Assembly (NCBI GenBank): GCA_030430205.1 | Contig: JAUIGE010000016.1 | Coordinates: forward strand, 62,001-126,000 | Direction of reading: 5' to 3' | Origin: Bacteroidia bacterium | Lineage (GTDB): Bacteria; Bacteroidota; Bacteroidia; J057 | Length of the DNA stretch: 64,000 nucleotides | Program-made: the position numbers and the translations under genes | Shown: positions 36,584 to 61,388 of the stretch, one piece after another | How the letters are laid out: the number at the start of each line of letters is the position of its first letter | Position numbering within the stretch: position 1 is the stretch's first letter | The notes under the pieces: model-generated | Databases searched by the model: none | What the model saw: only the letters and a program-made list of their open reading frames with translations | What the model was told of the DNA's origin: nothing

Positions 36584-36592
36584 TAGAAATAT

Positions 36593-36624
36593 GTGTGGAG
36601 GATCCAATCCCGGATTCTCCACAC
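36593..36624 (+). terminator. Hairpin with T-rich tail inside the TonB operon (attenuator-like)
   Basis: Arms GTGTGGAGGATCC and GGATTCTCCACAC pair with one mismatch around a short loop, followed by TTTAATTTTTT. It lies between the large secreted protein (stop at 36583) and the PorV-like ATG at 36644. It can act as a partial terminator that reduces the last gene's expression. It also argues against a GTG start at 36593, which would lie within the stem. Confidence 0.65.
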
Positions 36625-36643
36625 TTTAATTTTTTGGTTTATC

Positions 36644-42323: not shown

Positions 42324-44567
42324 TCATGCGAACACAACTTTCCCCTCAAAATCCACAACCAATTCCTGCGCCTGCAAAGCAGGCTTCTCCACCAGCATCC
42401 GCGCCAAAGGCGCGATAATCAGCCGCTCCACCTCCCGCTGTAGCGGTCGGGCACCGTATTTGGGGTCGAAGCCCTTTTGGGCTATGAAGGCGATGAGCTC
42501 ATCGCTAAAGGAGAGCCTCAGCTTGCGCTGGCGGATGCCATCCCGCTGGGCTATACCTTCCAGCTCTAGCTGGGCGATTTTGTGGATGGTATCGCCATCC
42601 AGCGGCTGAAATACCAGGGACATGTCAATGCGGTTAAAAAATTCAGGGCGGAAAAAATGGCGGATGTCCCGCTCATAATCATCCGGTTGATAGTTGCGAA
42701 ATCCCAGCGAACTACCGCGTTTGCTGCCCAGATTCGAAGTCATGATGATGATCGTATTGCGAAAATCCGTTACCCGGCCGGTATCATCCGCCAGCATGCC
42801 TTCATCCAGAACTGTCAGCAAAGCATCAAAAATCAGCGGATTCGCTTTTTCAATTTCATCCAGCAAAACCACGGAAAAAGGTTTTTCCCGCACCTGACGC
42901 ACCAGTTTTCCTTCCGAACCAATCAGCCGATAAATCTGAGCTGGATGCTGAAATTCGCTCATATCGAGCCGGATAAGTGGCTGGCTGCTTTGGCCCTGCC
43001 CAAAGAAATATCCAGACAAAGCTTTGGCGGTAGCCGTTTTGCCCACGCCGGTAGGACCGGCAAAAAGCAAAGTAGCCACAGGCTTATGCGGGTCATTGAG
43101 GCCCGCCTTAAATACTTTGATGATGGAGCAAAGCCTATCAATGACAGGGTCCTGGCCTTTTATTTTTTCCAGGAAAAAATTGCGCAGGGCTTCGGCCTTC
43201 AGCGGGATTTCATCCCGCAGGAGGAAATCGGGCATGCCCGTCTGGCTCGTAAAAGCCTTGATGACAAAAGCTTTGTCTATGCTGCTTTTTTGTTCCAAAA
43301 GGGCCGCATTCGCGACCTGAGAGAGAAAGCGTACCGCTTTGCCGGGGAAACTCTCGTATCGCAAAAAGCGATCGAGCAGGACATAACTGAGCTCCAGCGC
43401 ATCGCGCTCAAAGGCCAATTCTGCCACCCGACCGATGTGGTCGTTGAAGAGGTCGAAGACCTTGAGGCTGGTAGCCTGATCCATCTCTTTGACCTGTATG
43501 ATCTTAAAATGCTCCGCAAAGCCGGGGAGCAGGCGGCGCATGGCCTCCAATTGTTCGGGCGTCATCTCGCCGATGAGTTGCAACTGTCCCGCGCGGATAA
43601 AAGGCAGCAGAAATGCTGCCACCGAATCTTCGGGGCCGCTGCCACCGATGGTTACCAGTGTCACGAAATTTTCGAGCCACAGAAAGCCTCTGGCTTGCTC
43701 CAATTCGGTCACGATATGTTCGCAGATTTGCTGCCATTCGCCGAGGTACTTGGCTTTCGCCGTGAGGCGAACGGGCGTGCTGCGCCAGAAGCTGTTTCGC
43801 TCAAAAGGCAGCTGGCTTTTTTGCTTCGAATGCAATTCGCGGATGGCTTCGCGTATGATGGCGCTTTTGCCCACGCCGGCTTTGCCGACGAGCAGGACAT
43901 TGGCGCTTTCTTCGAGCATGATATGCCTGAGGCGATTGACCTCCTTGCTGCGCTCCCAGGCAGCGGGGCTTTGAATGCTGCTTTGGCCTTTGCGGCTTTG
44001 AGGGAGGCGTTCAGCTATGCTGACCAGGTTTTGGAAGTGGGAATAATCAAGCTGAGGCGCTTTTGAACCTTCTTTGGTCTTGGGCACATTCACCTTCAGC
44101 TTTTCCAGCCAGGGTTTTTCAGCGCGTGTATACTGGATTACCTGATCGGGACTCATGCTATAGAAAATGTCCCGCGCAAAATGCTTAACGAGCTTTTCCA
44201 CATCCTTTTCCTGGTAGAAATAAAAACTGCTGTCCAGTAAAGGGAAAAAGCATTCAAAGTAGCCATATTCATTCGGGCCATACACGGCAGTCACCTCCAC
44301 ATCAATCACTTCTTTGATGGGAAAAACCCGGTTGCCATCACTATAATGTGGTCTGACCTCAAGCTTCACGCTTTTCATCTTCGCCGAAGTGATCTCCGGC
44401 TCACTGAATGCATAAGCCTTCAACTTCTTCTCAATATAAGTCCCCAGATCTGCCTTCAGGCTCTGCAGGTCTGGCGAGATGAGCTCCTGCTCAAAACCCA
44501 CCATCCTGCCGAGGATGGCACCTGAAGGTAGTTTTTGACAGACTAAGGGGTATTCGTATATTTTCAT
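42324..44567 (-). CDS. ClpB/ClpA-like double AAA+ ATPase (short form, no release-factor tail)
   Basis: This 747-residue protein has a novel N-terminal domain (about 1-195) in place of the Clp-N repeat, then two AAA+ modules. Module 1 has Walker A G-K-A-G-V-G-K-S (228-235) and a pore-loop-like K-Y-L-G-E-W (273-278). Its Walker B position reads L-W-L-E-N (296-300), without the catalytic D-E. Module 2 has Walker A G-P-T-G-V-G-K-T (504-511), intact Walker B L-L-D-E-I (568-572), sensor T-S-N-L and arginine finger F-N-R-I (R646). The canonical aromatic pore loop of ClpB module 2 (P-P-G-Y-V-G) is deleted: R-L-I-G is followed directly by S-E-G-K-L. No ClpP-binding I-G-F/L loop is evident. It is the last gene of the operon. 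Confidence 0.85.
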   Translation of the reverse strand: MKIYEYPLVCQKLPSGAILGRMVGFEQELISPDLQSLKADLGTYIEKKLKAYAFSEPEITSAKMKSVKLEVRPHYSDGNRVFPIKEVIDVEVTAVYGPNEYGYFECFFPLLDSSFYFYQEKDVEKLVKHFARDIFYSMSPDQVIQYTRAEKPWLEKLKVNVPKTKEGSKAPQLDYSHFQNLVSIAERLPQSRKGQSSIQSPAAWERSKEVNRLRHIMLEESANVLLVGKAGVGKSAIIREAIRELHSKQKSQLPFERNSFWRSTPVRLTAKAKYLGEWQQICEHIVTELEQARGFLWLENFVTLVTIGGSGPEDSVAAFLLPFIRAGQLQLIGEMTPEQLEAMRRLLPGFAEHFKIIQVKEMDQATSLKVFDLFNDHIGRVAELAFERDALELSYVLLDRFLRYESFPGKAVRFLSQVANAALLEQKSSIDKAFVIKAFTSQTGMPDFLLRDEIPLKAEALRNFFLEKIKGQDPVIDRLCSIIKVFKAGLNDPHKPVATLLFAGPTGVGKTATAKALSGYFFGQGQSSQPLIRLDMSEFQHPAQIYRLIGSEGKLVRQVREKPFSVVLLDEIEKANPLIFDALLTVLDEGMLADDTGRVTDFRNTIIIMTSNLGSKRGSSLGFRNYQPDDYERDIRHFFRPEFFNRIDMSLVFQPLDGDTIHKIAQLELEGIAQRDGIRQRKLRLSFSDELIAFIAQKGFDPKYGARPLQREVERLIIAPLARMLVEKPALQAQELVVDFEGKVVFA

Positions 44568-44619: not shown

Positions 44620-47600
44620 CTAAGACAAACTCCCCCAAAACAGCAACCGCAGCTCCCGCTTCTTCAAATTGGCGGGATTCACCATGCCGGTGCGCAGGTC
44701 GGTCACATTGCCTTTGAGGTGGGAGCGGAGGAGCTGCTTCTTCTTGCGGTTGGCGTGCCAGAGGTGCTTCCAGTTTTGGTCTTCGAAGGTGTAGAGGCGG
44801 ATGCTGTATTTGATGCGGTCCTCGGCGGAATTGTGTGCTTCATCGGGTGTATCTATCAGTTGATAGGCGAAATCGGTGGGGGAGAGCAGGGGCGGTATGC
44901 GGTGGATGCTGCATTCGACAGGGAAAAGCGATTTGTGGCTGAGGAAGAGCAGGTGCACGCCCACCTCCTGCTGGAATAAATCCAGCAAGCCCGGCCCTTC
45001 CAGGGCCAGAAACAAATCATCCTTGCCGTCCACGGCAAGGATCTCCCCAGGATAAATATCCTGGTAAAGCGTAGCCAAAAAGTAGCAGAAGACTTCTTCT
45101 GATGGCAGGAGCCGGTTTTTGGAAACCAGTGGTTTCAGGCGGATCAGCACACGCTCAACACCTTTGTTGAGGTATTTACTGGCGAAATATTCGAGCCAGC
45201 AGATGCTGTGGTGCAATTCGAAGTAGATCGAATTGCTTTCTTCCACGATGCGATCGGCTGCGCCGATCAGGTCCTGCAGGTAATCCTGCACCGCCATCTG
45301 CGAGTACAACTCGCGGAGGAAGCCTTTGTCGCTTTCATCCAGCCCGCGGCTGATGGATTTGGTGCGGAAGTTGGATCCGCTCAGGTTGATGCGTTTGCGG
45401 GTCTGAAAGTCCCATACAATGGTTTTGAGCTGCTCTTCCAGTTCAAAAATCTGCTCCTTCAGGTTGAGCAGGTTTTCCATTTCCGTATCTCCTTCTTCAA
45501 ATACCAGCAGATTCCCTTCCTCTTCCTCCTCTTCTTCTTCCATTTTTTGCAAACTCATTTTCACCCATTTGACCCTTTCCATCAGGCTTTCAAACTGGCT
45601 TTGGCCGATCTCGTCCTGGCTGAAATTTGGCAATTTCCAATCGCCGGGCGGAATATGTTCCAGGCTCACGAGTTGCGGCAACAGCTTTTTATCCTGAAGA
45701 AGCAGGTTGAAAATAACAGGGTTTTGCGGAGGCGTCTCCACCAGCTGCTCTGCGAGCAGCAGCGTCATGTCTTTTTCTATCTGGCGCTTGAGCGCCCTGC
45801 CGCCATATTCGGGATCGAAGCCGCGGGCGGCTATGCGCTCCAAAGCCTCTTTGGTGATGTTGAGGATGGTATGACGGCGGATAAAGCCGTGTCGTTGCAG
45901 CAAATGGTGGATTTGCAGCCAGGCGATCTCGGCTATATGCTTCGCCTCCAGGCGATGAAATATCACGACCTGGTCGATGCGGTTGATGAATTCCGGGCGG
46001 AAAAAGTCCATGACCGCCTTGCGGTAGGTGCTCTCCGCGAGGTCCTCGCGGCCCAGCAGATTGATCTCCTGGCGCACGCGGTCCGCGCCCAGGTTGGAGG
46101 TCATCATGATGACCGTATTGCAAAAGCTCACCGTGCGCCCCAGGGCGTCCGTCAGGCGGCCTTCCCCCAGGACCTGTAGGAGCAGGTTGTGTACATCTGG
46201 ATGCGCCTTTTCGATTTCATCAAACAATAAAACACAATAAGGATTGTAGCGGATCTTGGCGGTCAATTGCCCTTCGGGCTGGCTGAAGTCGCCTACGAGG
46301 CGGTTGACAGCATTGCCATCGATGAATTCATTCATGTCGAAACGCACCAGCCGATCTTCATGTGTGAAGAGGAAATCGGCCAATATTTTGGCCGCATGGG
46401 TCTTGCCGACGCCTGTCGGCCCGATAAATAGAAAAGAGCCAAAGGGGCGATCGGGATCATTCAATTGCGCTTTGAGCGAACTGAGCAGGTCTGTCATGCA
46501 GCTGATGGCCTCGCTTTGACCGATGATATGCTGGTCAAAGTAGCTGCGAAACTCTTCGCTGTTGAGGGCGATTTCGGTATCCGCGATGCGCGGATGCAGA
46601 TGTGTTTGGGCACCAAACTCCCGGATCACATGGTCCGGACTGACAGCCTTATCGCTGTATTTGCTGGCCAGCTGATGCAGGCTGTCGGAAACACGGCCCA
46701 CCAGGGCTTCCTGGCGGAAAAAGCGCTTGTGAAGCTCTACGAGCTTTTTGAGGGCGATATTGTCAATCGCAAAATCGTGTTGCTTCTCCAGCTGCACGCG
46801 CTTGCGTGCGATGATGCGAAGCGCGTCCGCTTCGCGGGGTTCTTGTATGCGCAGGACCTTAAAAAGGTCTGTGAAGGAGCGATCCAATTCGCTGGCGATG
46901 TCCCACTCCTCAGGCGTAGCCTCCAGGATCAGCTGAAGCTGGCGATTTTGCAGGTAGGGCTTGAGCACATCGCTCAGAGTCATGTTGTTTTGAGCAGATT
47001 TTCCGATGCGGAAAAGGGCGATCAGGTTGCTGAAGTAGAGCTTGTCCCGGCGTTGCTTATAAGCATGATGTGGCTTCATCGCATAGCCGATGATGGCTTC
47101 CATGCGCCTTTGCCATGCACCTACCACGCTCATACCGGCGATCACCCGAGAGGGATCTATATGCCAGATGTCGTCCAGCAAATGGTAGTCCTTTTCCTTA
47201 TTTGCCTCCAGATAGCGTCGGATGGACTCATGCAAGAGGGTGCTTTTTCCCACCTTCCTCGGACCGATGATAACCACAGGGACATGGTCTTTTCCATAGA
47301 TCAATTGCCGCAATTGTTCTACAATTTTATCCGAAAAAAAGGCCTCATGTAGCTCATGCGGGTAAAGGTCGTTGAGATCCTGGCCGACTCTGCGGATTTC
47401 GAATGCGCCGTCAAAGGTGTCGGTTTGACGGAAAAATTGCTTGAAGGCATCTTCCTGGTCGATATCCAGCTTGAGTTGCTCTTGCCTGACGTAGAGGCTG
47501 AGTTCTATATTGGTGCAAAATTCTCTTTTCTCTGCCGCAAACTGCTCCAGGAGAATTTCTCCTTTCTCTTCACTTTTTTGCTGGCGAGGCCAGGCCTGCA

Positions 47601-48000
47601 TGTGCGCAGTGACTTCGTCCACAAGCTGAGAGCGGGAAGGGTCTTTGTGTTGACTGATGAAAAAATAGTTGTGGAGAGAAGGCAGGCAAACGTAGGTATA
47701 GCCCTTCAGCTGAAAGCGAACAACCGTCACCTCGCCGATGAAGTAGCGCCTTCCGTAGGAAAATTCAAGGTTGAAGGTGTCGGAAATGTATTCCGGCAAA
47801 AACTGGTGCCAAAGCAGTTCCTGCCTGCTTTCTTCATTCAGTTTATCTCCTGTAAAGGCCTTTCTCAAGGCTTTCATATACTTGCGCAGCGCATCCTCAT
47901 AGCGCTTGTCTGTGACTACAGGCTCCTCCTGAAACAAGGGCCGGATGAGGTAGCGGTCTTTTTTATGGCGAACCCAGATGGGTGTTTCGAATCTTAGCAT
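44620..48000 (-). CDS. Clp-like AAA+ ATPase fused to a release-factor-like C-terminal module
   Basis: This 1,126-residue protein has an N-terminal domain unlike Clp-N (1-235). A first AAA+ module follows with Walker A G-P-R-K-V-G-K-S (246-253) but a ruined Walker B (L-Y-F-S-N, 321-325). The second has intact G-P-T-G-V-G-K-T (527-534), L-L-F-D-E (591-595) and arginine finger R674. The region normally holding the G-Y-V-G pore loop is replaced by D-F-S-Q-P-E. After a Glu-rich linker and coiled coil (about 815-880), the C-terminus resembles a class I release factor: an E-V-G-V-H segment near 1012-1016 and V-T-D-L-R-T-G-M at 1099-1106, close to RF2's K-D-L-R-T-G. No G-G-Q is present, so peptidyl-tRNA hydrolysis is not expected. 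It is 100 bases downstream of the AlbA_2 gene. Confidence 0.8.
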   Translation of the reverse strand: MLRFETPIWVRHKKDRYLIRPLFQEEPVVTDKRYEDALRKYMKALRKAFTGDKLNEESRQELLWHQFLPEYISDTFNLEFSYGRRYFIGEVTVVRFQLKGYTYVCLPSLHNYFFISQHKDPSRSQLVDEVTAHMQAWPRQQKSEEKGEILLEQFAAEKREFCTNIELSLYVRQEQLKLDIDQEDAFKQFFRQTDTFDGAFEIRRVGQDLNDLYPHELHEAFFSDKIVEQLRQLIYGKDHVPVVIIGPRKVGKSTLLHESIRRYLEANKEKDYHLLDDIWHIDPSRVIAGMSVVGAWQRRMEAIIGYAMKPHHAYKQRRDKLYFSNLIALFRIGKSAQNNMTLSDVLKPYLQNRQLQLILEATPEEWDIASELDRSFTDLFKVLRIQEPREADALRIIARKRVQLEKQHDFAIDNIALKKLVELHKRFFRQEALVGRVSDSLHQLASKYSDKAVSPDHVIREFGAQTHLHPRIADTEIALNSEEFRSYFDQHIIGQSEAISCMTDLLSSLKAQLNDPDRPFGSFLFIGPTGVGKTHAAKILADFLFTHEDRLVRFDMNEFIDGNAVNRLVGDFSQPEGQLTAKIRYNPYCVLLFDEIEKAHPDVHNLLLQVLGEGRLTDALGRTVSFCNTVIMMTSNLGADRVRQEINLLGREDLAESTYRKAVMDFFRPEFINRIDQVVIFHRLEAKHIAEIAWLQIHHLLQRHGFIRRHTILNITKEALERIAARGFDPEYGGRALKRQIEKDMTLLLAEQLVETPPQNPVIFNLLLQDKKLLPQLVSLEHIPPGDWKLPNFSQDEIGQSQFESLMERVKWVKMSLQKMEEEEEEEEGNLLVFEEGDTEMENLLNLKEQIFELEEQLKTIVWDFQTRKRINLSGSNFRTKSISRGLDESDKGFLRELYSQMAVQDYLQDLIGAADRIVEESNSIYFELHHSICWLEYFASKYLNKGVERVLIRLKPLVSKNRLLPSEEVFCYFLATLYQDIYPGEILAVDGKDDLFLALEGPGLLDLFQQEVGVHLLFLSHKSLFPVECSIHRIPPLLSPTDFAYQLIDTPDEAHNSAEDRIKYSIRLYTFEDQNWKHLWHANRKKKQLLRSHLKGNVTDLRTGMVNPANLKKRELRLLFWGSLS

Positions 48001-48100
48001 GGAGAAGATGTATCAAATAACCGTCAAATAAGTAAGTGTCTGATTATTAGTGTGTTACATATATTTTGGTCCTGTTCTGCAATTATCCATCAAATAAACG

Positions 48101-49549
48101 CTATGCCCAAAAAGGAATATATTTCGCATACTTTCTTGAGTTAGTATGTGGATCATCGTCTTTTATCATTCCTGTCTCAAGAGCATCTCTTATAATCCTT
48201 GAAGCTACGGCAGCGTTTCTATTTTCTATACCAAACCGTTGCCTTAATGACTGATTTGTCATTTTTTCATTTGTTATGTATTTTAAACAGCAATGCTGAT
48301 AAGTTGCCCTAACCTTATCCTTTTTATCCATATTCTTAAGTTGCTTGTAAGCATAAAGAATGGCTTTCGTATGTCTTTGTAAAATGAGAAAATCAGGAGC
48401 CGGTAATTGAAAAACTTCTGTTGAAGCGATTACTTTATCTATTCCACTTCCTTTTTCCTCACAAATTCCCAACCTCCTGAGTAAATCCGCCAATTTCTCA
48501 TTTCTGGATTGGTATTCATCAATAAACCTTTCCGGAGTGATTAAAGGCAATCCTGAGTTGGAAATCTCTATTCGATCGCTGTAAATCTCAATGATGGGAA
48601 ATCCTTTTTCCTCAAAATCCTGATGAATGAGAGCATTCGCGACTAATTCCCGAATGGCAATTTCTGGATACATCCGTACTTCCTTTCTAAGAGCCTGACC
48701 AATAACTTCATTAGTCGGTAGCTGGCTATTTATCCAGTTTATTAATCCTATAAAACCGACGGCATATCCATTTTCCCTTATTTCTTCTCTGGTGGTGTGG
48801 AGTTTGTTTTTGCCATCATAAATAATAACCCGAACGGCTTTCCTGTAGAGAGTCGAAAAATCGTTTAGATTTTTAGCAAAAAGTATTGCTCCTAAATGGG
48901 TTATGCTATAGCCTTTCTTTGAAGGAACGATAAACTCCTCAGAGATAAATTTTTCAATTACTCCATCACGGGAACTGGGATAGGGAATTCTCAGAAGCTC
49001 AAAATAGCTTTGAGTGTCTAAAAGGGAGACAACTTTATCTGCTGAAACATCTGGTAGTGCTTTCCTTTTTTCAAATGCTAATGAGGGCCCTCTTTTCCAT
49101 ATTTTTCGTGCTTTTTCAGGAAATTCGTTCAGTTTTCTTGAAATACTGCCCACCCGAATATAAGCCTGGTGTTGGAATTCTACGGGCTGGTTGTGTGTTG
49201 CTGGGATGATAAACATGGATATTCCTTTCGTCTCATATTCAAATTCATAAATCTCAAAATCAATTCTTGGGTTAAGCCTCTGGGCTAACCAATGTTCTAG
49301 TTCTTCTTTGCCTATTTGAGCACTTTTTGCTTTGAATGTAGTTCCTACTATTTGGTGTGTTTGGTCCTCGACTCCAAAAACTAAATAACCATATTCCTGA
49401 TTGTGAATACATGCCCCGTTAGATAAGGCAGAAAGTAACCTGCCAATTTCCTCATGGGAGTGAAAATTATATTTGAATTCAACCCATTCACTTTCCTTGG
49501 GTTGCTTTACGAGGTCTTCTAGTAAGCGATGCAATTGTGCTTCTTTCAT
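48101..49549 (-). CDS. AlbA_2 (Schlafen-type) DNA-binding/GHKL-like regulator
   Basis: This 482-residue protein starts with an AlbA_2 domain (about 15-140, including E-S-E-W-V-E-F-K-Y-N and G-Y-L-V-F-G-V-E-D). A middle HATPase_c_4 region follows, with E-L-V-A-N-A-L-I-H-Q-D-F (about 300) and G-S-G-I-D-K, and then a winged-helix end with V-R-A-T-Y-Q-H and F-G-I-E-N-R-N-A-A-V-A-S-R-I-I. Family members are ATP-binding transcription regulators, several linked to defence islands. The gene is visibly more AT-rich than its Clp-like neighbours. It sits 18 bases after one Clp gene and 100 bases before another, so it interrupts them and may have been inserted. Confidence 0.85.
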   Translation of the reverse strand: MKEAQLHRLLEDLVKQPKESEWVEFKYNFHSHEEIGRLLSALSNGACIHNQEYGYLVFGVEDQTHQIVGTTFKAKSAQIGKEELEHWLAQRLNPRIDFEIYEFEYETKGISMFIIPATHNQPVEFQHQAYIRVGSISRKLNEFPEKARKIWKRGPSLAFEKRKALPDVSADKVVSLLDTQSYFELLRIPYPSSRDGVIEKFISEEFIVPSKKGYSITHLGAILFAKNLNDFSTLYRKAVRVIIYDGKNKLHTTREEIRENGYAVGFIGLINWINSQLPTNEVIGQALRKEVRMYPEIAIRELVANALIHQDFEEKGFPIIEIYSDRIEISNSGLPLITPERFIDEYQSRNEKLADLLRRLGICEEKGSGIDKVIASTEVFQLPAPDFLILQRHTKAILYAYKQLKNMDKKDKVRATYQHCCLKYITNEKMTNQSLRQRFGIENRNAAVASRIIRDALETGMIKDDDPHTNSRKYAKYIPFWA

Positions 49550-49567
49550 ACTCTACCTATAAAAGGA

Positions 49568-52500
49568 TTACGATACAAGATATTCATTCAGTTTCTGCCC
49601 AAACTTCTCTTCGAGCAGGGCAAAAAGGTTTTTGTCAAAGTGCTTGCCCGGCAAAGTGACTTTGTAGTGTGTGTCCTGCAGCCCTTCTGAGGGATGGTAG
49701 CTGCGGCGGAAGTTTTGCTGGGCAAAAAACTTTTGCCTGTGAACGCCATCCGGCGTCTCAAATTCATGTAGCGATCCTTTTTGCATGGCGACAAAATATT
49801 TGTGCGGCACCCGCTTTTTATTGATCCATTTTTGAAAACCTTCCTCTCCCTGTAAATAGAAATAACAGAGATCTCCCTTGATTTCCAATTCTATGCCCAC
49901 CAGGAGATACCTTTCTGGCATCTCCCTGGTTTTCAGGCTTTTGCTTAGGTATTCGGGCTCGCCCGCTTTCGGTTGGCTGTCAAACCATAAGGTATGTGCA
50001 AAGACTTTGAAGCCTTTTTTGGCGATGATTTCGAAGTAGACTTCCGCCAGGTCAAAAAGGCTGTCCTTTGCCCCATAAATCCCCATGCTGCAATGGGAAT
50101 AGGTTTCGCTTTCCAGTTGAATCAACTGCGTCTTAAGCGATGTGATTTCCTTTTTCCAGCCTGAAAATTTTTCCCACTGTGCTTCGGCCTCGCTGGCTTC
50201 CCCGTGAATCATCAGGAAATTGTCCAACTCAATCTGCTCGATGGATCTCAGCGCCTGTTCCATGCGCGCTTTCAGCTCGATGAGCGCCATATATTTCTTG
50301 CTTTTGGCATTGTCCTGCCAAAACTCGCTTTCCTTTTTGCGCTTTTTTAAAGCGCCCAACTCCCGCTCAAAACGATCGAGTTCACTGATCACTTTGGCGT
50401 ACAGATTGGCTTGCATGATGCTGTGGGTCAGGCGCCTCTGTCTGCTGCATTGGTCGACAAATTCACCGATGCGAAGCTCTTCGCCTTCGGCAAGCCGGCT
50501 TTCGAGCAAAGGCGATCCTTTGCGTTTTTGGATATCAAAGATCAGCTTTTGCTGATCGAGGGATACCCGCAACTCCAGCGGCACTTTGTGCTCGTACTGG
50601 TTGAGCTCATGTGCCAAAGGGATGATGAGCCGCTCGCGCAGCGTGCGCTGTAGAAAACGCGCTCCGTAGCGCGCATTGTAGCCTTTTTCGCCCAGAAAAT
50701 CCAGCACCTCTTTCTCTGGCAGAAAATTCACATCTCTTCCCTGGAAGCCTTCACGCTTCATGATATGCAGCAATTCCCTGTCCACAATCTTGCGGATAAC
50801 CTCCCTTTGCAGCGGAGCAAAGGCGATGATGCGATCAAGGCGGTTGAACAGTTCGGGCCGAAAGTGCGCCTGCACGGCTGTGCGAAAATGCTCTGAAGCA
50901 TCGGAAGCCGTAGGATCAGAACTGCCGAAGCCGACGCTGCTCGTCTGAAAGGCGCGCGCGCCGATATTGGAGGTCATGATGATGATGGTGGAGCAAAAAT
51001 CCGCCACGCGCCCGCGCGCGTCCGTCAGTCGGCCTTCTCCCAAAATCTGCAAAAGCAGATCATAAAAGGAAGGATGCACCTTCTCCAACTCATCAAAAAG
51101 GATCACAGAAAATGGATTTTGGCGGACAGTAGCTGTGAGCAGGCCTTCGCCTGAGCCTGTATCGCCCGTGAGGCGCATGACGGCAAGCATGTCGGTATAT
51201 TCGCTCATGTCAAAGCGAATCATTTTGTCGCGATTTCCAAAAAGGAATTGGGCCAGGACTTTGGCCATTTCGGTCTTGCCGACGCCTGTCGGCCCGGCAA
51301 ATAGCAGAGAAGCCAGAGGCTTGCCCCTTTTGATAACGGCCGCTTTGATGGAAAAAAGCAATTCCATCACAGTCTCTATCGCTTCATTTTGCCCATATAT
51401 ATTTTGCTGAAAAAAGCTGTTTACCTCCTCATAATCGAGGGCGAGCTGGTCGTTGACCATGAATTCGGGCAGGCCGGTCTCCTGGCAAAAAGCCTGGTAG
51501 ATATCGGCCTTGCTGATGGAGGCTTGCTCCGTTTTTTTCTTTTCGCTGAAAAGAGATTCGAGAAAGACGAGGGTCTTGCCCGGCAAGCCGGAGTAAGGCG
51601 TAAACCACTGCTGCAGGCGCAGGATTTCGAGGGCGGCATCCTCATCGGATGCAATGCGATGCTTGTGGGCGAGGTATTTGCTTTTTTTCAAAACAATCTC
51701 TTCCAGTTGGGCACGCTCAAGCTGAGGCAGCCGAATCTCCCGAAAGAGGGCGAGAAAGCCCGGCGCGCGCAATTCGATCCGGGCCGCCTCTTCTGGAGTA
51801 CACTCCGTCATGAGGATGATGTCGCCGCGGCTGATGTAGTCGCGCAGGTAGTCGGCGATGGAAAGGCTGTTGCCGACATATTGCCCGACCTCGAAGAGGT
51901 CTATGAGGCGGGGAAAATAGAGGATATCGCCTGCCTCCCGCAGTTCGTTGCAGAGCTGTGCGAGGTAGTCTTCCCAGCTGCCCTGCGCCGTCAGGCGGTG
52001 GATGAGCTGGGCGGCTGTAGCCTTCCAGACTTTCAGCTTATTCAGCTTGTGAATACTGCGGTCCCGGACAAACTGCCGAATAAGCTCCGTTTTCCCTTTT
52101 CCACTGCCCCCCACCACCAAAATGCTTGTAGGCGCTTTGCTTTTCATGGTGGAAACCAGCTGTTCGTATTTTTCTTCCAGACCGATGAGGACATTGTCGC
52201 TTAGCTCAAAGGGCTCCACTACTTTGTTGAGCAGGGCTTCTTCTTTCTCCTGCTGCCATTGCTCCAATTCGCTCATGGTATAGAAGAAAAAATCCGGCGC
52301 ATGGGTATGCACTTTCACCTCGCTAAACCACTGTGTGCTCAGGAGAGAAGGGATAGAGGAAAGCCTTTTTCGGCGAATAAATTCCAGCAGGATGTTGTCG
52401 CGCATGCTTTCGCGCAGCTTTTCCATCTCCCTGCCTACGGCAGTTAAGCCCAGCACAGGCACAAAGCCTGTCCAGTATGCGCCCTCCTCCCTGGGAGGCA

Positions 52501-52795
52501 GAAAAAACATATCAAAGCTAAGCTCCAGGGCGGGGAAGCGCTGGCTGGCAGAGGCATCCACGGGCACCAGCAGGCTTTCATGCTGCACTTCCTGCTGGAT
52601 CAGCAGCTTCAATAGCTCGCTAAAATGCCCTTTCATCAGCAGCTCATGCTGGATAGCATTGGCAAACTGATCCGCAAACTGCTGATGGTCAGTATTGAGC
52701 CGCTGAAGCGCGGGCTTCAGCAAAGGGGAAATAATTTTGCTTCCCGATATGTGCGTGGCCTCGCAAAGGTGGAGGGTGAGGGCTAGTTCTTTCAT
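49568..52795 (-). CDS. Clp-like AAA+ ATPase fused to an RF2-like C-terminal module
   Basis: This 1,075-residue protein has an N-terminal domain (1-220) and then module 1 with Walker A G-G-S-G-K-G-K-T (229-236) and a degraded Walker B (I-L-Y-F-P-R, 291-296). Module 2 has G-P-T-G-V-G-K-T (501-508), I-L-F-D-E (565-569) and arginine finger R652. The G-Y-V-G pore loop is missing (R-L-T-G-D-T-G-S-G-E-G instead). From 800 on, a helical region with S-E-F-W-Q-D (823-828) resembles the RF2 domain 1 'FW' motif. The next part (about 895-1020) resembles the PCRF domain, with Y-F-E-I-I-A-K-K-G-F-K-V and P-D-G-V-H-R. No G-G-Q appears. It is the first of the Clp-like genes and follows the HNH gene by 68 bases. 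Confidence 0.8.
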   Translation of the reverse strand: MKELALTLHLCEATHISGSKIISPLLKPALQRLNTDHQQFADQFANAIQHELLMKGHFSELLKLLIQQEVQHESLLVPVDASASQRFPALELSFDMFFLPPREEGAYWTGFVPVLGLTAVGREMEKLRESMRDNILLEFIRRKRLSSIPSLLSTQWFSEVKVHTHAPDFFFYTMSELEQWQQEKEEALLNKVVEPFELSDNVLIGLEEKYEQLVSTMKSKAPTSILVVGGSGKGKTELIRQFVRDRSIHKLNKLKVWKATAAQLIHRLTAQGSWEDYLAQLCNELREAGDILYFPRLIDLFEVGQYVGNSLSIADYLRDYISRGDIILMTECTPEEAARIELRAPGFLALFREIRLPQLERAQLEEIVLKKSKYLAHKHRIASDEDAALEILRLQQWFTPYSGLPGKTLVFLESLFSEKKKTEQASISKADIYQAFCQETGLPEFMVNDQLALDYEEVNSFFQQNIYGQNEAIETVMELLFSIKAAVIKRGKPLASLLFAGPTGVGKTEMAKVLAQFLFGNRDKMIRFDMSEYTDMLAVMRLTGDTGSGEGLLTATVRQNPFSVILFDELEKVHPSFYDLLLQILGEGRLTDARGRVADFCSTIIIMTSNIGARAFQTSSVGFGSSDPTASDASEHFRTAVQAHFRPELFNRLDRIIAFAPLQREVIRKIVDRELLHIMKREGFQGRDVNFLPEKEVLDFLGEKGYNARYGARFLQRTLRERLIIPLAHELNQYEHKVPLELRVSLDQQKLIFDIQKRKGSPLLESRLAEGEELRIGEFVDQCSRQRRLTHSIMQANLYAKVISELDRFERELGALKKRKKESEFWQDNAKSKKYMALIELKARMEQALRSIEQIELDNFLMIHGEASEAEAQWEKFSGWKKEITSLKTQLIQLESETYSHCSMGIYGAKDSLFDLAEVYFEIIAKKGFKVFAHTLWFDSQPKAGEPEYLSKSLKTREMPERYLLVGIELEIKGDLCYFYLQGEEGFQKWINKKRVPHKYFVAMQKGSLHEFETPDGVHRQKFFAQQNFRRSYHPSEGLQDTHYKVTLPGKHFDKNLFALLEEKFGQKLNEYLVS

Positions 52796-52863: not shown

Positions 52864-53754
52864 TTACCATTCAAGCGCTTCGGGGGCTTGCATGAAAAGA
52901 GCCTGGGTATTTGGTAAATGATCCCGCTGTCTGATGAGTTCTCTCCAAACAGTAGGATGAGGATGATTCCTGATGTCTCGCTGGATATTGGCTTGAATTT
53001 GAGTTTTTTCTTCCTCAAAATCCTTGCTTTTATCTATTTCCGCAAAGTCATCCAGGGGCTCCAATTCGTTGAAATTTTGAGCCTTTTTTACCTTGATATA
53101 GAGTCGGAGTGTGGCTAAAAAAAACTGGGCTGCAGCTTTTCTTGCCTCACGAAGTGCGTTCCTTTTGTTGAGTTGCAATATTTCCAGGGTTCTTGTTGCC
53201 TTCTCAAAGCTTCTGGTTCCTTCCTCTGCTTTTTCCCTGAATAAAAATGTGGGACATCCAGGGGTTAAATCCAGCCAAAGAAAGTCCATGGGATCCTCCT
53301 TTCGGGGATCAAGGAAGGCGGCATCTTCATTGGGCGGAGCTTTGAACTCCCCTCGTGGAGGTTTGACATCCAGTACCTTAGCCGAATTTTCGGGATTAAA
53401 AACAAAGAATTTTTCCTGCTTGTGGGTGCTATTGCATTTTTGACAGGCCAGGAGGTAGTTTTCCCATTTGAAAGCTTTTTTCGGAAATATCTTCTTCGGA
53501 TAAATATGCTCTACATCAGCAGCCTCATTGTTTTCACAATAATTGCAGATTTCTGTTCCAACGCACATTTCCAGTAATGTCTCTTTGATCTCGGCAAAAG
53601 CAGCTTTTGCAGCCGTGGAGCCTTTATTATCCCACAATTGTTTTGCCCTTTTGGCCTGGGCTTCAAAGTCAGGCTTGTTATCAATGTCATTTTGCCTTTG
53701 TTCCAGGAAATCAAGGTTTTCCTGAGATAAGGGTTTAGAGCTTAAGGGTATCAT
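52864..53754 (-). CDS. HNH endonuclease, Septu PtuB-like
   Basis: This 296-residue protein has an HNH core of the PtuB/TIGR02646 type. C70 and C73 form the first zinc half (C-N-Y-C), then V-E-H-I-Y-P-K supplies H83, and N-Y-L-L-A-C-Q-K-C-N (99-108) has C104, C107 and N108. Flanking helices are Lys/Glu-rich. Its ATG overlaps the ATPase gene's 3' end by 20 bases, so translation is coupled. In Septu systems the ATPase (PtuA) and HNH nuclease (PtuB) together restrict phages; this pair fits that description. No retron reverse transcriptase is nearby. Confidence 0.8.
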   Translation of the reverse strand: MIPLSSKPLSQENLDFLEQRQNDIDNKPDFEAQAKRAKQLWDNKGSTAAKAAFAEIKETLLEMCVGTEICNYCENNEAADVEHIYPKKIFPKKAFKWENYLLACQKCNSTHKQEKFFVFNPENSAKVLDVKPPRGEFKAPPNEDAAFLDPRKEDPMDFLWLDLTPGCPTFLFREKAEEGTRSFEKATRTLEILQLNKRNALREARKAAAQFFLATLRLYIKVKKAQNFNELEPLDDFAEIDKSKDFEEEKTQIQANIQRDIRNHPHPTVWRELIRQRDHLPNTQALFMQAPEALEW

Positions 53755-55078
53755 CGGAAATGAAAATTTTCTGTAGATGGGCTTGTTCTTTCTTTTCTTC
53801 GGCGTTGAGCTTCCCGAAAGTGGCTTTCATATTCAGTTTTGAAAGCTTTTCGAGCATTTCCTGGCTTTTGTCACTTCGAGCGATATTTACACCAAAAGCG
53901 TCTGTACTATAAGCGTCGAGCACATTGCCAAAGACCAATTTATCCCTTTCAGCACCCATGATTTGTTCCACCTTTTCATCACTTCCTGGTGCTGGAAGAC
54001 GCCATATAGTTCCTTTTTCTGCCCCACGGCAGATAAGCGGGCTATGGGTAGTGACGATAAATTGTATTTGCGGAAAGTAGCGGGTAAACCACTGCCCGAT
54101 GCGGGTTTGCCAGGTCGGATGGAGGTGGGCATCGACTTCGTCGATGAGGATGACGCCGGGGACGTTGATGAAGGCTTCGCCTTTTTGGATGTGTTCGAAG
54201 ACGGTTTCTGCGCCGTAGGCGGAGATGAGTTGGCGGATGATTTCGAAAGTCATACTGAGGATGGACTGCTGGCCATGGCTAAGCTCTGTTGCTAAAACTA
54301 TTATCCCATTTCCATCCACAAAGAATAAACCCTCTGCACTTATTTTTTCTAAATGAAGATTATGAGGTAATAAATCCCCGTTATTGATAAAGGTGACAAT
54401 ATGGTCTAATAAACTTTTTGCTTCCTTCCTTTTATCTACCAATACCTTTTTATCAATTGACAAATAATTTAGAGAATCTAACCAGCCTAAAACCGATGTA
54501 AGTGCTATATCATCGTTAAAAACCGAAATATGGTTTTCTATTTTAGTATCAGAATGATCCCTTTTATCAAACCACCGGTTTTCTCCCGTGAATCTTCTGG
54601 AAATTCCAAAAGAAGAGTAGCATTGATTAAAATATTCGTTATCCCAAAATGCATTAATTTCATCCGATGGGTCTTTTGCTTCAATCGTCACTTTCTTAAG
54701 TTCTCGGGGGGGGATATTTGAGCCCTTTGCTACGCTAAGTGGATTGAAAGGCTTTTTAACCTCTATGGTTCCCTCAATTTTGGTGTATGTAGCATTTTTG
54801 GGAACGCCTTCATTAATTATCGGGGCCGAGAAAGTTATTTGAATGGTCCCCTTTTCCAGATTTGTATCTTTTCTCAACCAACTTTCCCAATTGTGAATAA
54901 TTTTTTTTGCATCCTCTGGCCCAATCAAAGCTACCGCCACCGACCTCACAAAAGTACTTTTCCCCGCTCCATTATCCCCCAAAATCACATGCCATCCGGC
55001 GTAGCCTTCTTCTGGGAATGTCATCTCCAATGCTTCTATGGAGCGAATATTATTGATACTAATTGAATGTATATACAT
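53735..55078 (-). CDS. AAA/ABC-type ATPase, Septu PtuA-like
   Basis: This 447-residue protein is an OLD/RecF-like ATPase of the AAA_21 kind. It has Walker A G-D-N-G-A-G-K-S-T (34-42), the ABC signature L-S-H-G-Q-Q-S (266-272), Walker B V-I-L-I-D-E (309-314) followed by D-A-H-L-H-P, and an H-loop T-T-H-S-P-L with H345. The insert between Walker A and signature is helical. No TOPRIM nuclease domain is visible, so the partner HNH protein probably supplies the nuclease. The 5' half of the gene is AT-rich compared with the surroundings. It heads a co-directional run of six genes. A MITE-like repeat lies just upstream. Confidence 0.8.
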   Translation of the reverse strand: MYIHSISINNIRSIEALEMTFPEEGYAGWHVILGDNGAGKSTFVRSVAVALIGPEDAKKIIHNWESWLRKDTNLEKGTIQITFSAPIINEGVPKNATYTKIEGTIEVKKPFNPLSVAKGSNIPPRELKKVTIEAKDPSDEINAFWDNEYFNQCYSSFGISRRFTGENRWFDKRDHSDTKIENHISVFNDDIALTSVLGWLDSLNYLSIDKKVLVDKRKEAKSLLDHIVTFINNGDLLPHNLHLEKISAEGLFFVDGNGIIVLATELSHGQQSILSMTFEIIRQLISAYGAETVFEHIQKGEAFINVPGVILIDEVDAHLHPTWQTRIGQWFTRYFPQIQFIVTTHSPLICRGAEKGTIWRLPAPGSDEKVEQIMGAERDKLVFGNVLDAYSTDAFGVNIARSDKSQEMLEKLSKLNMKATFGKLNAEEKKEQAHLQKIFISDDTLKL

Positions 55079-57023: not shown

Positions 57024-59063
57024 ATGAAAAGCTCAGTTATCATTTTTTGTTTATGGGGAGGACTGCTTTTTGGGCCTGGGCTACTGCGGGGCCAGACAAT
57101 CCTTCATGGCACTTTTCCCAATGATACAACCCTCACGGCAGCAGGGAACCCCTATCAGGTGACAGCTGATTTATTTATCCCTGATTCAGTAAGCCTGACG
57201 CTCGGCGCAGGGGTTTGGATGATTTTTGATTCGGCAGTGACGGTTTACCTCGATGGTACACTTCGTGTCTTAGGTACCGCTACGGATTCTGTTTATTTAG
57301 TCGGAAAAAATGGCCCGTTACAAGCCTCAGGACCTAATATAGGAGGTTGGCCAAAAGGTATCTGGGGAGGGATTGTTTCTGATAGTCTTTTTGGAAAGGT
57401 AGAAGCAAATTATATGGTTGCGGCTCATGCCTCTTTTTTTCTCGATCCTCCAGAAATCCTGATCCTAAAAAACAGTTCCTTTTTCCATCATCATCGAGCA
57501 GTGCTTGCGCTTCCGGGAGTCTATGCCCTCATTGAGAGCTGTAAGTTTAATAATTGTGCCTCAGCCGTGGTGGGTACAGGAATAGAAATGAATAACAGCC
57601 TGATTGAGAATTGTACGATGGGGGCATCTGTTTTTAGTTCTACCCTACATAATTGCACCATTCAAAATTGCAGCATCACCGGCCTGGAAATAAGTAATGC
57701 ATTGGGCGGATCAACAGTCTCTAACTCTCATTTTTATGATAATTGGAATGGTCTACGGATCGTGAATTTTGGCCTCCAAATGGGAGGATTGCCCGATACT
57801 ACTTTCCTGATAGGTAACACGATCATGGATAACCAGAACGGTTTGAGATTAGATTATAACGCAGGTTCTAATTTTGAAATCATTGTAACAAACAATGTGA
57901 TTTGTAATCAGACATTTAATGTTCAGTTTTTTGATACACTGCCCTCCCATTTTGAAAATAACTGCTGGTGCTCGGTTGATAGTTTAACAATTTTACAAAC
58001 AATCACATGGTACAATAGCTATCCTCAGAGAATTCCAGCAGTTAATCCTTCTATTTTTATTCCTTTTCAAACAGACTGTATCTCCGGGGAAGTCTATCCC
58101 GGAGACGCCAATCACGACCAGGTCGCGAATTTCCTGGACATCCTGACCATCGGTCAGTATTTCGGCCAGACAGGACCCCCACGCCCCAACGCCAGCCTTA
58201 GCTGGCATGGCCAGCCCGCTCCCAATTGGAGCACCGACCAGGCCACGGGCCACAACCTCAAGCATGCAGATTGCAATGGTGATAGCACCATCGACTGGGC
58301 CGATACCCTGGCAATCCGCCTCAATTATGGCCGCATGCATCGCGCAAGGCGTACAGCATCTGTGAATGGTATTCCCCTCATCCTCCAGGCGCCAGCTGCT
58401 GCTCAGAATCCGGGTGATACGGTCCATTTGCCCATTCTCCTGGGGACGGTAGATACGGTTGCTTACAATGTGTATGGGATCGCTTTTTCCATTCACTACG
58501 ATGCCAGCCAGGTAGTTCCGGTTCCCAGCGTTCATTTTCCCCATTCCTGGTTGGGGATTCCCGGAACCAATATGATTGGCTTTGGGTATGTCGATACCCT
58601 TGCGAGCCGGATTGATGTAGCTTTGGTGGGCACCAATGGGCTGGCCCGTTCGGGCTTTGGGCAGATTGCAGAGCTGGTCGTCGTCATAGACGACGACATC
58701 ACCAAGCGAAATATCCCCTTGCGATTGAGTTTTTCAGATGTCTACGCCATTGATTCTGCCGGAAATCAAATTCCGGTCAGAGATGAGGTCGAACCTACGG
58801 TAGTTGAAGTGGACGAAGGAGGGGATATTGGCTTATTATTTAGGGCATATCCCAACCCCGCCAGTGATTTTGTTATCATTGAGCCCAAGATATCCGTGTC
58901 CTACGGTGTCAGAATGGTGGATATGATGGGAAGAGTTTGGCTTCGACAGAATAACCTCATGGGGAGGCAACGACTCTGTCTGGCACATAAGCCGGGAGGA
59001 TTATACATCCTTCAGTTTCGAACGGGGGGATTTGTGGAGTCGTTTAAGCTTGTTCATCCGTAG
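57024..59063 (+). CDS. Secreted beta-helix protein with dockerin-like, cohesin-like and T9SS domains (copy 1)
   Basis: This 679-residue protein has a signal peptide (M-K-S-S-V-I-I-F-C-L-W-G). It has a right-handed parallel beta-helix (about 85-320, with short repeated N-x-x-I/F turns), then two dockerin-type calcium motifs, G-D-A-N-H-D-Q-V (about 354) and D-C-N-G-D-S-T-I-D (about 413). Next comes a cohesin-like beta-sandwich (about 465-590: Y-N-V-Y-G-I-A-F-S-I-H-Y-D, then Q-I-A-E-L-V-V-V-I-D-D-D). A T9SS sorting domain ends the protein (A-Y-P-N-P-A-S-D-F-V). Dockerin and cohesin modules bind each other, so one protein with both might self-assemble. It is a tandem paralogue of the next gene. 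A clear terminator follows the stop. Confidence 0.75.
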   Translation: MKSSVIIFCLWGGLLFGPGLLRGQTILHGTFPNDTTLTAAGNPYQVTADLFIPDSVSLTLGAGVWMIFDSAVTVYLDGTLRVLGTATDSVYLVGKNGPLQASGPNIGGWPKGIWGGIVSDSLFGKVEANYMVAAHASFFLDPPEILILKNSSFFHHHRAVLALPGVYALIESCKFNNCASAVVGTGIEMNNSLIENCTMGASVFSSTLHNCTIQNCSITGLEISNALGGSTVSNSHFYDNWNGLRIVNFGLQMGGLPDTTFLIGNTIMDNQNGLRLDYNAGSNFEIIVTNNVICNQTFNVQFFDTLPSHFENNCWCSVDSLTILQTITWYNSYPQRIPAVNPSIFIPFQTDCISGEVYPGDANHDQVANFLDILTIGQYFGQTGPPRPNASLSWHGQPAPNWSTDQATGHNLKHADCNGDSTIDWADTLAIRLNYGRMHRARRTASVNGIPLILQAPAAAQNPGDTVHLPILLGTVDTVAYNVYGIAFSIHYDASQVVPVPSVHFPHSWLGIPGTNMIGFGYVDTLASRIDVALVGTNGLARSGFGQIAELVVVIDDDITKRNIPLRLSFSDVYAIDSAGNQIPVRDEVEPTVVEVDEGGDIGLLFRAYPNPASDFVIIEPKISVSYGVRMVDMMGRVWLRQNNLMGRQRLCLAHKPGGLYILQFRTGGFVESFKLVHP

Positions 59064-59072
59064 GGGGAGGAG

Positions 59073-59100
59073 GAGCAGGGAAAACGCCTGCTCTTTTTTC
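59073..59100 (+). terminator. Intrinsic terminator after the first beta-helix gene
   Basis: GAGCAGG and CCTGCTC form a 7-base stem with a 7-base loop, followed by a run of six Ts. It starts 10 bases after the stop codon at 59063. Confidence 0.8.
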
Positions 59101-59207
59101 TCCTCAGGTTATTTAGGATCAAAATATTTTTACTCATGGTAAGCTCAAAGCCCTTTTAAATAATCCATTTTAATCTCTGTTTTAGAGAAGTTCATTCTTT
59201 GTTTGTA

Positions 59208-59242
59208 GGTAAAGGCTCAATAATTTGAGTCTTTGCCTTTTT
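59208..59242 (+). terminator. Second terminator-like hairpin in the spacer
   Basis: A 13-base stem with two G-T pairs (GGTAAAGGCTCAA/TTGAGTCTTTGCC) and a TAAT loop is followed by TTTTT. With the previous terminator it separates the two paralogous genes. The remaining part of the 336-base spacer is AT-rich and shows no gene. Confidence 0.65.
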
Positions 59243-59399
59243 CTCGTAAATAGAGTTATTTATTTTTTTAAAAATCTGTAAATCAATTTATTAGTAAATT
59301 TTACCTCGCTATTTTTTCTCATAAACTATTTTTAGTGAAATTTAATTCCAGCTCTACTCCCTTTAAGTTTGTAAAGTGAAATTTTCAAATCGCTTTACC

Positions 59400-61388
59400 A
59401 TGAAAAAGACAGTTATACTCTTCTCCCTATTTCTTTTCCTTTTTGCTGGAAAAAACCATCTCCAGGCTCAAACGATACTGAGCGACACCCTTTTTGCTGA
59501 TACCACGCTGACCGCCTCGGGCAATCCTTATATGGTAACCACTGTGCTGGTTATTCCCGATTCAGTGATGTTGACAGTAGGGCAGGGGGTAAAAATCATT
59601 TTTAAACCAGCTAGCTTTGTGCGCCTGGAAGGCAGCCTGCGGATAAATGGCACTGCCACAGACTCCGTCTATATGGTGGGGGAAAACGGCGCGCTTGCCG
59701 GAAATACCTTCAACAGGATCTGGGAAGGAATCCGCTTTTATGGCGGAGAATTACACGCCAATTATTTGGTAGGGGCTCATAGCTGGAATTTTTTGACTGA
59801 TTTTCAATCTGCTGATATTCAGGTGAGAAACAGCAGCTTTTTGTACAATGTGGGTGGTGTAGATATCCGAAACGGCGCTTATTTTGACAGCTGTCATTTT
59901 GCTTTTGGCGCGACAGGCCTGCGCATCACTAGCCCCACAGAAGTGCGAAATTCCCTGATCGAGGGCTTATATACAGGAGTGGATGGAACCTATGCCACCG
60001 TGAAAAATAGCGTGATCCGGGACAACCGAATCGGGATGACCTCAAATGGCAGCCGACTGGAAAATTGTATTGTGAGAAATAACCTGAGAGGCGTCCAATT
60101 GGAATACAACGGCCTTGTTCTCCTCAATAAGGATACCTCCTATCTGTTTGATAATCAAATTATTGACAATCAATTCGGCATCTGGATCAGAGATATACAA
60201 TACGACAAAGCCGTCATCGCCAACAATGTGATCTGCAACGATTCCATGAATCTTTCCTTTGGCAATGTGCCCCTGATAGACGTGCGCGACAACTGCTGGT
60301 GCTCTGCTGACAGAAATGAAATCGTGCAGAAAATCGAATGGCTCAATACGACCGCTCCTTTCTCTCCTTATATCTTCGAACCTTTTCAACAGGACTGTAC
60401 CCCAGACGATGTCTGGCCCGGTGACGCCAACCACGACCAGGTCGCGGACATGCGCGACATCCTGGCCATCGGCCAGTTTTTCGGGCAGACGGGCCCCGCC
60501 CGTCCCAACGCCAGCCTCAGCTGGCAAGGCCAGCCCGCCCCGGACTGGGGCACTGCCCAGCCCAATGGCTTCGACATCAAGCATGTCGATTGTGATGGCG
60601 ATAGCAGCATCGCCTGGGCCGATACGCTGGCGATTCGCCAGAATTATGGCCTGAGCCACCGCTCCCGCCGCCCGGCGGCGAGCAACCATGGCGTGCCGCT
60701 TATCCTGCAAGCGCCCGCAACCATGCTTCATCCCGGCGATACCGCCCGCATGCCCATCATCCTGGGGACCATAGACACCATGGCCGTCAATATGTACGGC
60801 ATCGCCTTTTCCATCTATTATGATTCGGCTCAGGTGCTGCCGACGCCCGGCATTCGCTTCCTCAATTCCTGGCTGGGAACACCCGGCACAGACCTGATCA
60901 CCTTTTACCATGTCGATACCCTCGACAGCCGCATAGACATCGCACTGGCGCGCAACAACCAGCTGGCCCGTTCGGGCTATGGGCAGATCGCCGAGCTCAT
61001 CGTCGTCATTGACGACGACATCGCCAAGCGCCAGATACCGCTTGCTTTGAGCATGGCAAATCCTTTTGCCATGGATGAAAATGGCGCAGAGGAGCCGGTG
61101 AAGCTGATTGTAGGGAGCGTGCAGGTGCAAACGGCTTTGCAGGCAGAAATAGCTTCCACTTTCGCTATTTTCCCCAATCCGACCAACGAATTTGTGACCA
61201 TCACTGCTGAGCAGCTTCAGCCTTATGACATCCAGCTTTTTGATGCCCAGGGAAGGCAGATCAAAGCCTGGGAAAAGCTTTTTGGAAAAAATACACTGGA
61301 TGTGGGAGCATTGCCTGAGGGATTTTACCTCATGCGGATTCGTGTAGATGCGGGTACTTTTTTTGAAAAAGTGATTATTCGGAGATAA
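59400..61388 (+). CDS. Secreted beta-helix protein with dockerin-like, cohesin-like and T9SS domains (copy 2)
   Basis: This 662-residue protein starts at ATG 59400, giving a standard signal peptide (M-K-K-T-V-I-L-F). A GTG 24 bases upstream would add a non-signal leader. It has the same order as the preceding gene: a beta-helix (about 70-310), dockerin-like motifs (G-D-A-N-H-D-Q-V-A-D and D-C-D-G-D-S-S-I-A), a cohesin-like domain (V-N-M-Y-G-I-A-F-S-I-Y-Y-D, then G-Q-I-A-E-L-I-V-V-I-D-D-D) and a T9SS type A domain (F-P-N-P-T-N-E-F-V). Identity to copy 1 is highest in the dockerin/cohesin part and lower in the helix, which suggests that the binding surface of the helix has diverged while the assembly part is conserved. 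Confidence 0.75.
   Translation: MKKTVILFSLFLFLFAGKNHLQAQTILSDTLFADTTLTASGNPYMVTTVLVIPDSVMLTVGQGVKIIFKPASFVRLEGSLRINGTATDSVYMVGENGALAGNTFNRIWEGIRFYGGELHANYLVGAHSWNFLTDFQSADIQVRNSSFLYNVGGVDIRNGAYFDSCHFAFGATGLRITSPTEVRNSLIEGLYTGVDGTYATVKNSVIRDNRIGMTSNGSRLENCIVRNNLRGVQLEYNGLVLLNKDTSYLFDNQIIDNQFGIWIRDIQYDKAVIANNVICNDSMNLSFGNVPLIDVRDNCWCSADRNEIVQKIEWLNTTAPFSPYIFEPFQQDCTPDDVWPGDANHDQVADMRDILAIGQFFGQTGPARPNASLSWQGQPAPDWGTAQPNGFDIKHVDCDGDSSIAWADTLAIRQNYGLSHRSRRPAASNHGVPLILQAPATMLHPGDTARMPIILGTIDTMAVNMYGIAFSIYYDSAQVLPTPGIRFLNSWLGTPGTDLITFYHVDTLDSRIDIALARNNQLARSGYGQIAELIVVIDDDIAKRQIPLALSMANPFAMDENGAEEPVKLIVGSVQVQTALQAEIASTFAIFPNPTNEFVTITAEQLQPYDIQLFDAQGRQIKAWEKLFGKNTLDVGALPEGFYLMRIRVDAGTFFEKVIIRR

Follow-up and report, generated by a model that had tools for sequence, protein, structure and literature searches.

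The window, a stretch of 64,000 nucleotides from a Bacteroidia bacterium, holds a run of minus-strand genes that encode, in order, a PtuA-like ATPase, a PtuB-like nuclease, a Clp-like ATPase of 1,075 residues, an SLFN/AlbA_2 protein, and two further Clp-like ATPases of 1,126 and 747 residues, followed by an MscS gene. The three Clp-like genes are referred to below as the trio, and their products by length; the features discussed are collected in Table 1. The PtuA-like and PtuB-like genes are adjacent and each matched its PADLOC profile over the full length, so that the Septu-type pair (52864-55078) is complete. Its position beside the trio does not imply that the trio belongs to Septu.

Table 1. 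Features of the trio locus, with positions numbered along the window
Feature	Position	Strand	Basis or state
747-aa Clp-like ATPase, third member of the unit, without C-terminal module	42324..44567	-	
1,126-aa Clp-like ATPase, C-terminus diverged, possibly RF2-like	44620..48000	-	ORF intact
VTDLRTGM, residues 1099-1106 of the 1,126 protein (RF2 LVKDLRTG)	44683..44706	-	P 0.0009, 0/150 shuffles
GVHLL stretch, residues ~1006-1021 of the 1,126 protein, on RF2 166-182	44938..44985	-	hhalign local P 0.006, 0/150 shuffles
SLFN/AlbA_2 protein with HATPase_c_4, between the 1,075 and 1,126 genes	48101..49549	-	Pfam 2.8e-19
1,075-aa Clp-like ATPase with RF2-like C-terminal module	49568..52795	-	ORF intact
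GVHR, residues 1017-1020 of the 1,075 protein, ~30 residues downstream of the aligned position, no SPF after	49736..49747	-	
RF2-like module, residues ~807-1009 of the 1,075 protein (RF2 domain 1 and first half of domain 2)	49769..50377	-	hhalign
IELEIKGDLCYFYLQGEEGFQK, residues 968-989 of the 1,075 protein	49829..49894	-	PSSM
SEFW motif, residues 823-826 of the 1,075 protein, at the RF2 'DFWDD' position	50318..50329	-	E-F-W invariant in ortholog; PSSM rank
VGF, residues 621-623 of the 1,075 protein, aligned with the ClpC ClpP-docking tripeptide	50927..50935	-	
Septu PtuB-like HNH nuclease, directly upstream of the 1,075 gene	52864..53754	-	PADLOC PtuB1 E 1.5e-83, full length
Septu PtuA-like ATPase	53735..55078	-	PADLOC PtuA1 E 3.9e-135, full length

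Elsewhere in the window, positions 57024-61388 carry a tandem of two related secreted proteins, the first of which combines a right-handed beta-helix with a dockerin-like region and a Por-type sorting tail. Genes for two proteins, of 1,336 and 371 residues, that have no Pfam match at E 0.001 occupy 32573-37708, downstream from a TonB-dependent receptor gene.

The order of the three ATPase genes is kept in one other sampled genome, G012 (contig RFHL01001330, locus L006), where the contig terminates within the trio. The SLFN gene is missing there, and the ATPase genes that would flank it are adjacent, with a gap of 22 bp. Since this gene also has a GC fraction of 0.371, while most of the trio lies at about 0.50-0.53, it is probably a later insertion. 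No further trio member was found in the class, order, phylum and relative samples, which overlap one another. A pattern scan of GTDB contigs, which diverged members escape, returned locus L006 alone, and a search for relatives in viral contigs, plasmids, phages and GTDB genome contigs likewise returned only this locus. A match in another relative, G140, was considered as a further fusion and rejected, the match being to that genome's own prfB gene. Among the samples searched, the trio is thus rare and patchy in distribution, with two genomes known. The orthologs of the 1,075 protein are highly divergent, at 23% identity.

The anatomy of the ATPases was derived by aligning the complete proteins of the window with the ClpC- and ClpB-like proteins of the same genome. 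By this comparison the 1,075, 1,126 and 747 proteins are ClpC-like. Walker A, Walker B and the arginine finger of the second AAA+ module (D2) are intact in all three proteins. The initial annotation had called the 1,075 and 1,126 proteins Clp-type AAA+ ATPases, and this is borne out, as both carry AAA_2 and ClpB_D2-small domains with intact D2 Walker A and B sites. The first module (D1) is degenerate: its Walker A is recognisable, its Walker B is lost (LYFPRL, LYFSNL and LWLENF replace LFIDEL), the Walker B glutamate being missing in all three, and its arginine finger is lost as well. The D2 pore loop GYVG, including its tyrosine, is deleted throughout the trio, and of the three only the 747 protein retains the D1 pore-loop aromatic (KYLG). 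The missing pore-loop tyrosines argue against ordinary threading. The middle domain is absent from all three ATPases, and a Pfam search of their N-terminal domains gave no family. Furthermore, the NCBIfam equivalogs ClpA, ClpB, ClpK, ClpG and TssH gave 190-324 bits and did not reach their cut-offs of 885-1900.

The tripeptide by which ClpC docks on ClpP is represented by VGF in the 1,075 protein and by LGF, also at residues 621-623, in the 747 protein; [LV]GF is absent from the 1,126 protein, the ortholog of the 1,075 protein has AGF, and the genome encodes ClpP. Judged from the aligned sites, this anatomy suggests that the subunits divide the work between them and that the motor is a non-standard one. 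The third ATPase, the degenerate D1 and pore loops, the docking tripeptides, the defence neighbourhood and the conservation of the trio add to what the initial annotation described.

That annotation also proposed class I release-factor-like C-termini for both the 1,075 and the 1,126 protein. For the 1,075 protein the proposal stands. When its C-terminal 320 residues were compared with NCBIfam, prfB was the sole family at E<=10 (E 0.0038), with residues 47-143 of the query on RF2 13-107; the match amounts to 16.3 bits and does not reach the curated cut-off of 370. The same query also matched the true prfB of the relative G140 (E 7e-5, 39% over 84 residues). Pfam scans of the C-termini of the 1,075 and 1,126 proteins gave no PCRF match. 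The PDB was searched by sequence, both with one sequence at a time and with profiles of two rows, and nothing relevant came back.

Profile comparison extended the match. A query profile of two sequences, the 1,075 protein and its ortholog, was aligned by hhalign with a profile built on 28 RF2 sequences of related genomes and gave 181 co-linear columns, query residues 52-254 on RF2 7-202 (P 1.8e-5). The score of 44.7 was reached in none of 200 shuffles (maximum 28.6), and the reversed sequence scored 18.7. The window sequence alone scored 45.2, against at most 24.8 in stretches of real proteins (0/154 reached the score). In HMMER the module scored 15.7 bits against RF2, where the best of 1000 shuffles gave 6.4. 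The RF1 profile was tried as a source of the module and rejected, its HMMER signal being no higher than that of shuffles. The ortholog C-terminus by itself was not above background in the HMMER and real-protein-stretch tests; it keeps E-F-W and G-x-H-R-Q.

The match could in principle have come from coiled coils, a concern addressed by scoring its two halves separately. The helical domain-1 half alone scored 28.1 against a shuffle maximum of 26.4 (n=150), and the non-coiled, helix-free domain-2 half is significant by itself (34.0 against a maximum of 21.2; n=150). Within that half, IELEIKGDLCYFYLQGEEGFQK scored 18.9 bits on RF2 columns 156-177, a value reached at 0 of 75,939 background positions. 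Together the sequence comparisons indicate that the C-terminus of the 1,075 protein is homologous to RF2, and is nearer RF2 than RF1.

The motifs named in the initial annotation lie where it placed them (S-E-F-W at 823 and G-V-H-R at 1017 in the 1,075 protein; G-V-H at 1014 and V-T-D-L-R-T-G-M at 1099 in the 1,126 protein), and it was right that neither protein has GGQ. That tripeptide is absent from both proteins and from the examined parts of their orthologs, and SPF, the stop-codon recognition tripeptide, is absent from the 1,075 and 1,126 proteins too. Because both GGQ and SPF are missing, the 1,075 protein is not a working release factor.

The structural results for the 1,075 module serve as corroboration only. 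A two-sequence AlphaFold model was weak (mean pLDDT 50.6) and places a helical region before a beta-alpha-beta-beta-beta order, the order found in domains 1-2 of RF2. In a Foldseek search with this weak model, RF2 or RF1 chains took ranks 1, 3, 5, 19 and 20, with RF2 at the top (E 0.09). RF2 was second in the VIA list, with 160 residues aligned at rmsd 4.5 and a Z of 11.1, although a Z of 11 is attainable by unrelated helical bundles. The 1,075 protein thus combines a match to the RF2 profile with RF2 as the top Foldseek chain of a weak model. The initial annotation would have been contradicted by a fold unlike that of release factors or by failure to match any profile, and neither was the outcome for this protein.

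For the 1,126 protein the same proposal is only suggestive. Two local windows, listed in Table 1 and picked after the motifs were known, match RF2; G-V-H and V-x-D-L-R-T-G follow the RF2 order, V-x-D-L-R-T-G falling on the RF2 tail, and DLRTG is conserved in the ortholog. The whole C-terminus stayed at chance level against RF2, Pfam and NCBIfam in hhalign and HMMER comparisons judged by shuffles and real-protein stretches. When the GGQ domain was excised from the RF2 profile, a chained alignment scored 37-41 (P ~1e-5), but neighbouring excisions or small shifts of the boundaries abolish it, and this result is not relied on. The model of this C-terminus (pLDDT 37.7) is unusable, and its structural matches were generic helical bundles. 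Homology between the C-termini of the 1,075 and 1,126 proteins was not detectable. From these comparisons the RF2 relationship of the 1,126 C-terminus is suggestive and unproven, and could fall either way. The unusual fusion is real for the 1,075 protein and plausible for the 1,126 protein.

We propose that the 1,075, 1,126 and 747 proteins form a hetero-oligomeric AAA+ complex that docks at the ribosomal A site as a remodelling machine, a reading to which we give an even chance. At the level of sequence it is supported by the RF2 homology of the 1,075 module, by the lack of both GGQ and SPF, by the pattern of ATPase sites and by the conserved trio. The three genes would encode one complex descended from a ClpC-like ancestor, the three ATPases would form one ring, and ATP would be hydrolysed in D2 only, with D1 structural or regulatory. 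The 1,075 subunit would contribute a module derived from RF2 by loss of the catalytic GGQ domain, in which domain 1 and the codon-recognition half of domain 2 remain, and the 1,126 subunit may bear a more diverged version of it. This module would dock the complex in the A site with no need for a stop codon and with no release of the peptide; as the catalytic part is missing, the motor probably docks on ribosomes instead of terminating translation.

Because domain 1 of RF2 lies at the periphery of the A site, an ATPase ring ahead of the module would sit outside, at the factor-binding entrance. A motor at this entrance would act on stalled or damaged translation complexes, its presumed substrates, by remodelling them or clearing them away, and material may be handed to host ClpP via the 747 and 1,075 subunits. 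The machine may act in stress or in phage defence. Counting against the docking proposal are the weak model of the module with its Foldseek E of 0.09, an ortholog C-terminus that by itself stays at background, the missing SPF motif, the lost pore-loop tyrosines, the lack of a Pfam PCRF match and an occurrence known from two genomes only. The fuller version of the proposal, a ribosome-targeting AAA+ machine with a GGQ-less RF2 on one or two of three specialised Clp paralogs that would settle in the A site and spend ATP on dismantling or clearing translation complexes for defence or rescue, is held more tentatively, somewhat below even.

A different use of the same parts would make the trio a defence effector: on phage infection the module would fill the A site, and the ATPases would block or dismantle host or phage-programmed ribosomes, leading to abortive infection. 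The PtuA/PtuB-like genes directly upstream, the SLFN gene inside the unit, the rare and patchy distribution and the loss of GGQ and SPF all fit such a role. Additionally, a ClpB-type ATPase is known from a defence system, Dodola, whose DolB profiles gave matches at E 1e-22 to 1e-31; these are largely confined to the D2 ATPase, a DolA partner was not seen, and the profile includes no release-factor module. However, the Septu neighbours are known from one genome only, the other contig ending within the trio, and the SLFN insert is compositionally foreign, so the neighbourhood may reflect accretion in an island. We regard an effector of this kind as unlikely. The toxin-like mimicry of a release factor suggested in the initial annotation found no specific support beyond the neighbouring defence genes.

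Slightly less likely again is that the RF2-derived module has lost A-site binding and been re-used to bind RNA or protein. The precedent is PrfB3 of plant chloroplasts, an RF2 descendant that has similarly lost both SPF and GGQ and that protects petB mRNA 3' ends (PMC5897788). The high divergence between the orthologs of the 1,075 protein is in keeping with such a change of function, yet nothing specific points to an RNA target, and the retained parts, domain 1 with the first half of domain 2, are those that contact the ribosome. PrfB3 stabilises its mRNA with no ATPase attached.

We hold it improbable that the C-termini bear no relation to release factors, being coiled coils with a small beta domain whose likeness to RF2 is fortuitous and which serve as adaptors or oligomerisation tails. 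Such a reading fits the 1,126 protein well, and also the coiled-coil-type helices of the domain-1 match. Against it stand, for the 1,075 protein, the score of the non-coiled domain-2 part against 150 shuffles and an overall score that no real-protein stretch reached.

The proposed docking machine can be set against the families from which it would be built. The 1,075 module follows RF2 (PrfB) through domain 1 and half-way into domain 2, both in domain order and in sequence, and shares the motifs EFW, GDxxYxYLxGExG and G-V-H-R; unlike RF2, the protein has no GGQ domain and no SPF and is fused to a double AAA+ ATPase. The trio resembles ClpC/ClpA (Hsp100) in its two AAA+ modules, its intact D2 catalytic residues and the [LV]GF tripeptide in two of the three members. 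It departs from ClpC/ClpA in the lost D1 Walker B and arginine finger, the deleted D2 pore-loop tyrosine, the absence of a middle domain, the different N-terminal domains and the presence of three paralogs in one unit.

A comparable recruitment to translation damage in conflicts is that of PrfH, a relative of release factors which acts with RtcB2 to protect against 16S rRNA cleavage (PMC1586002, PMC9223846), and it illustrates that such relatives serve damaged ribosomes in conflict settings (PMC9223846). The 1,075 module shows the reverse of PrfH, which keeps GGQ and has no domain 1; nor is PrfH joined to an AAA+ ATPase. A survey of release-factor evolution makes no mention of Clp or PCRF (PMC6514570), and no description of a fusion between a Clp ATPase and a release factor was found in the open-access literature searched.

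Docking of the module in the A site would mean that the trio couples an AAA+ motor directly to the decoding centre, an arrangement that, to our knowledge, is not known from other systems. A termination factor would then have become a targeting device through the loss of its catalytic domain. The trio also offers a test case for hetero-oligomeric Clp rings in which D1 is silenced and the canonical pore loops are missing.
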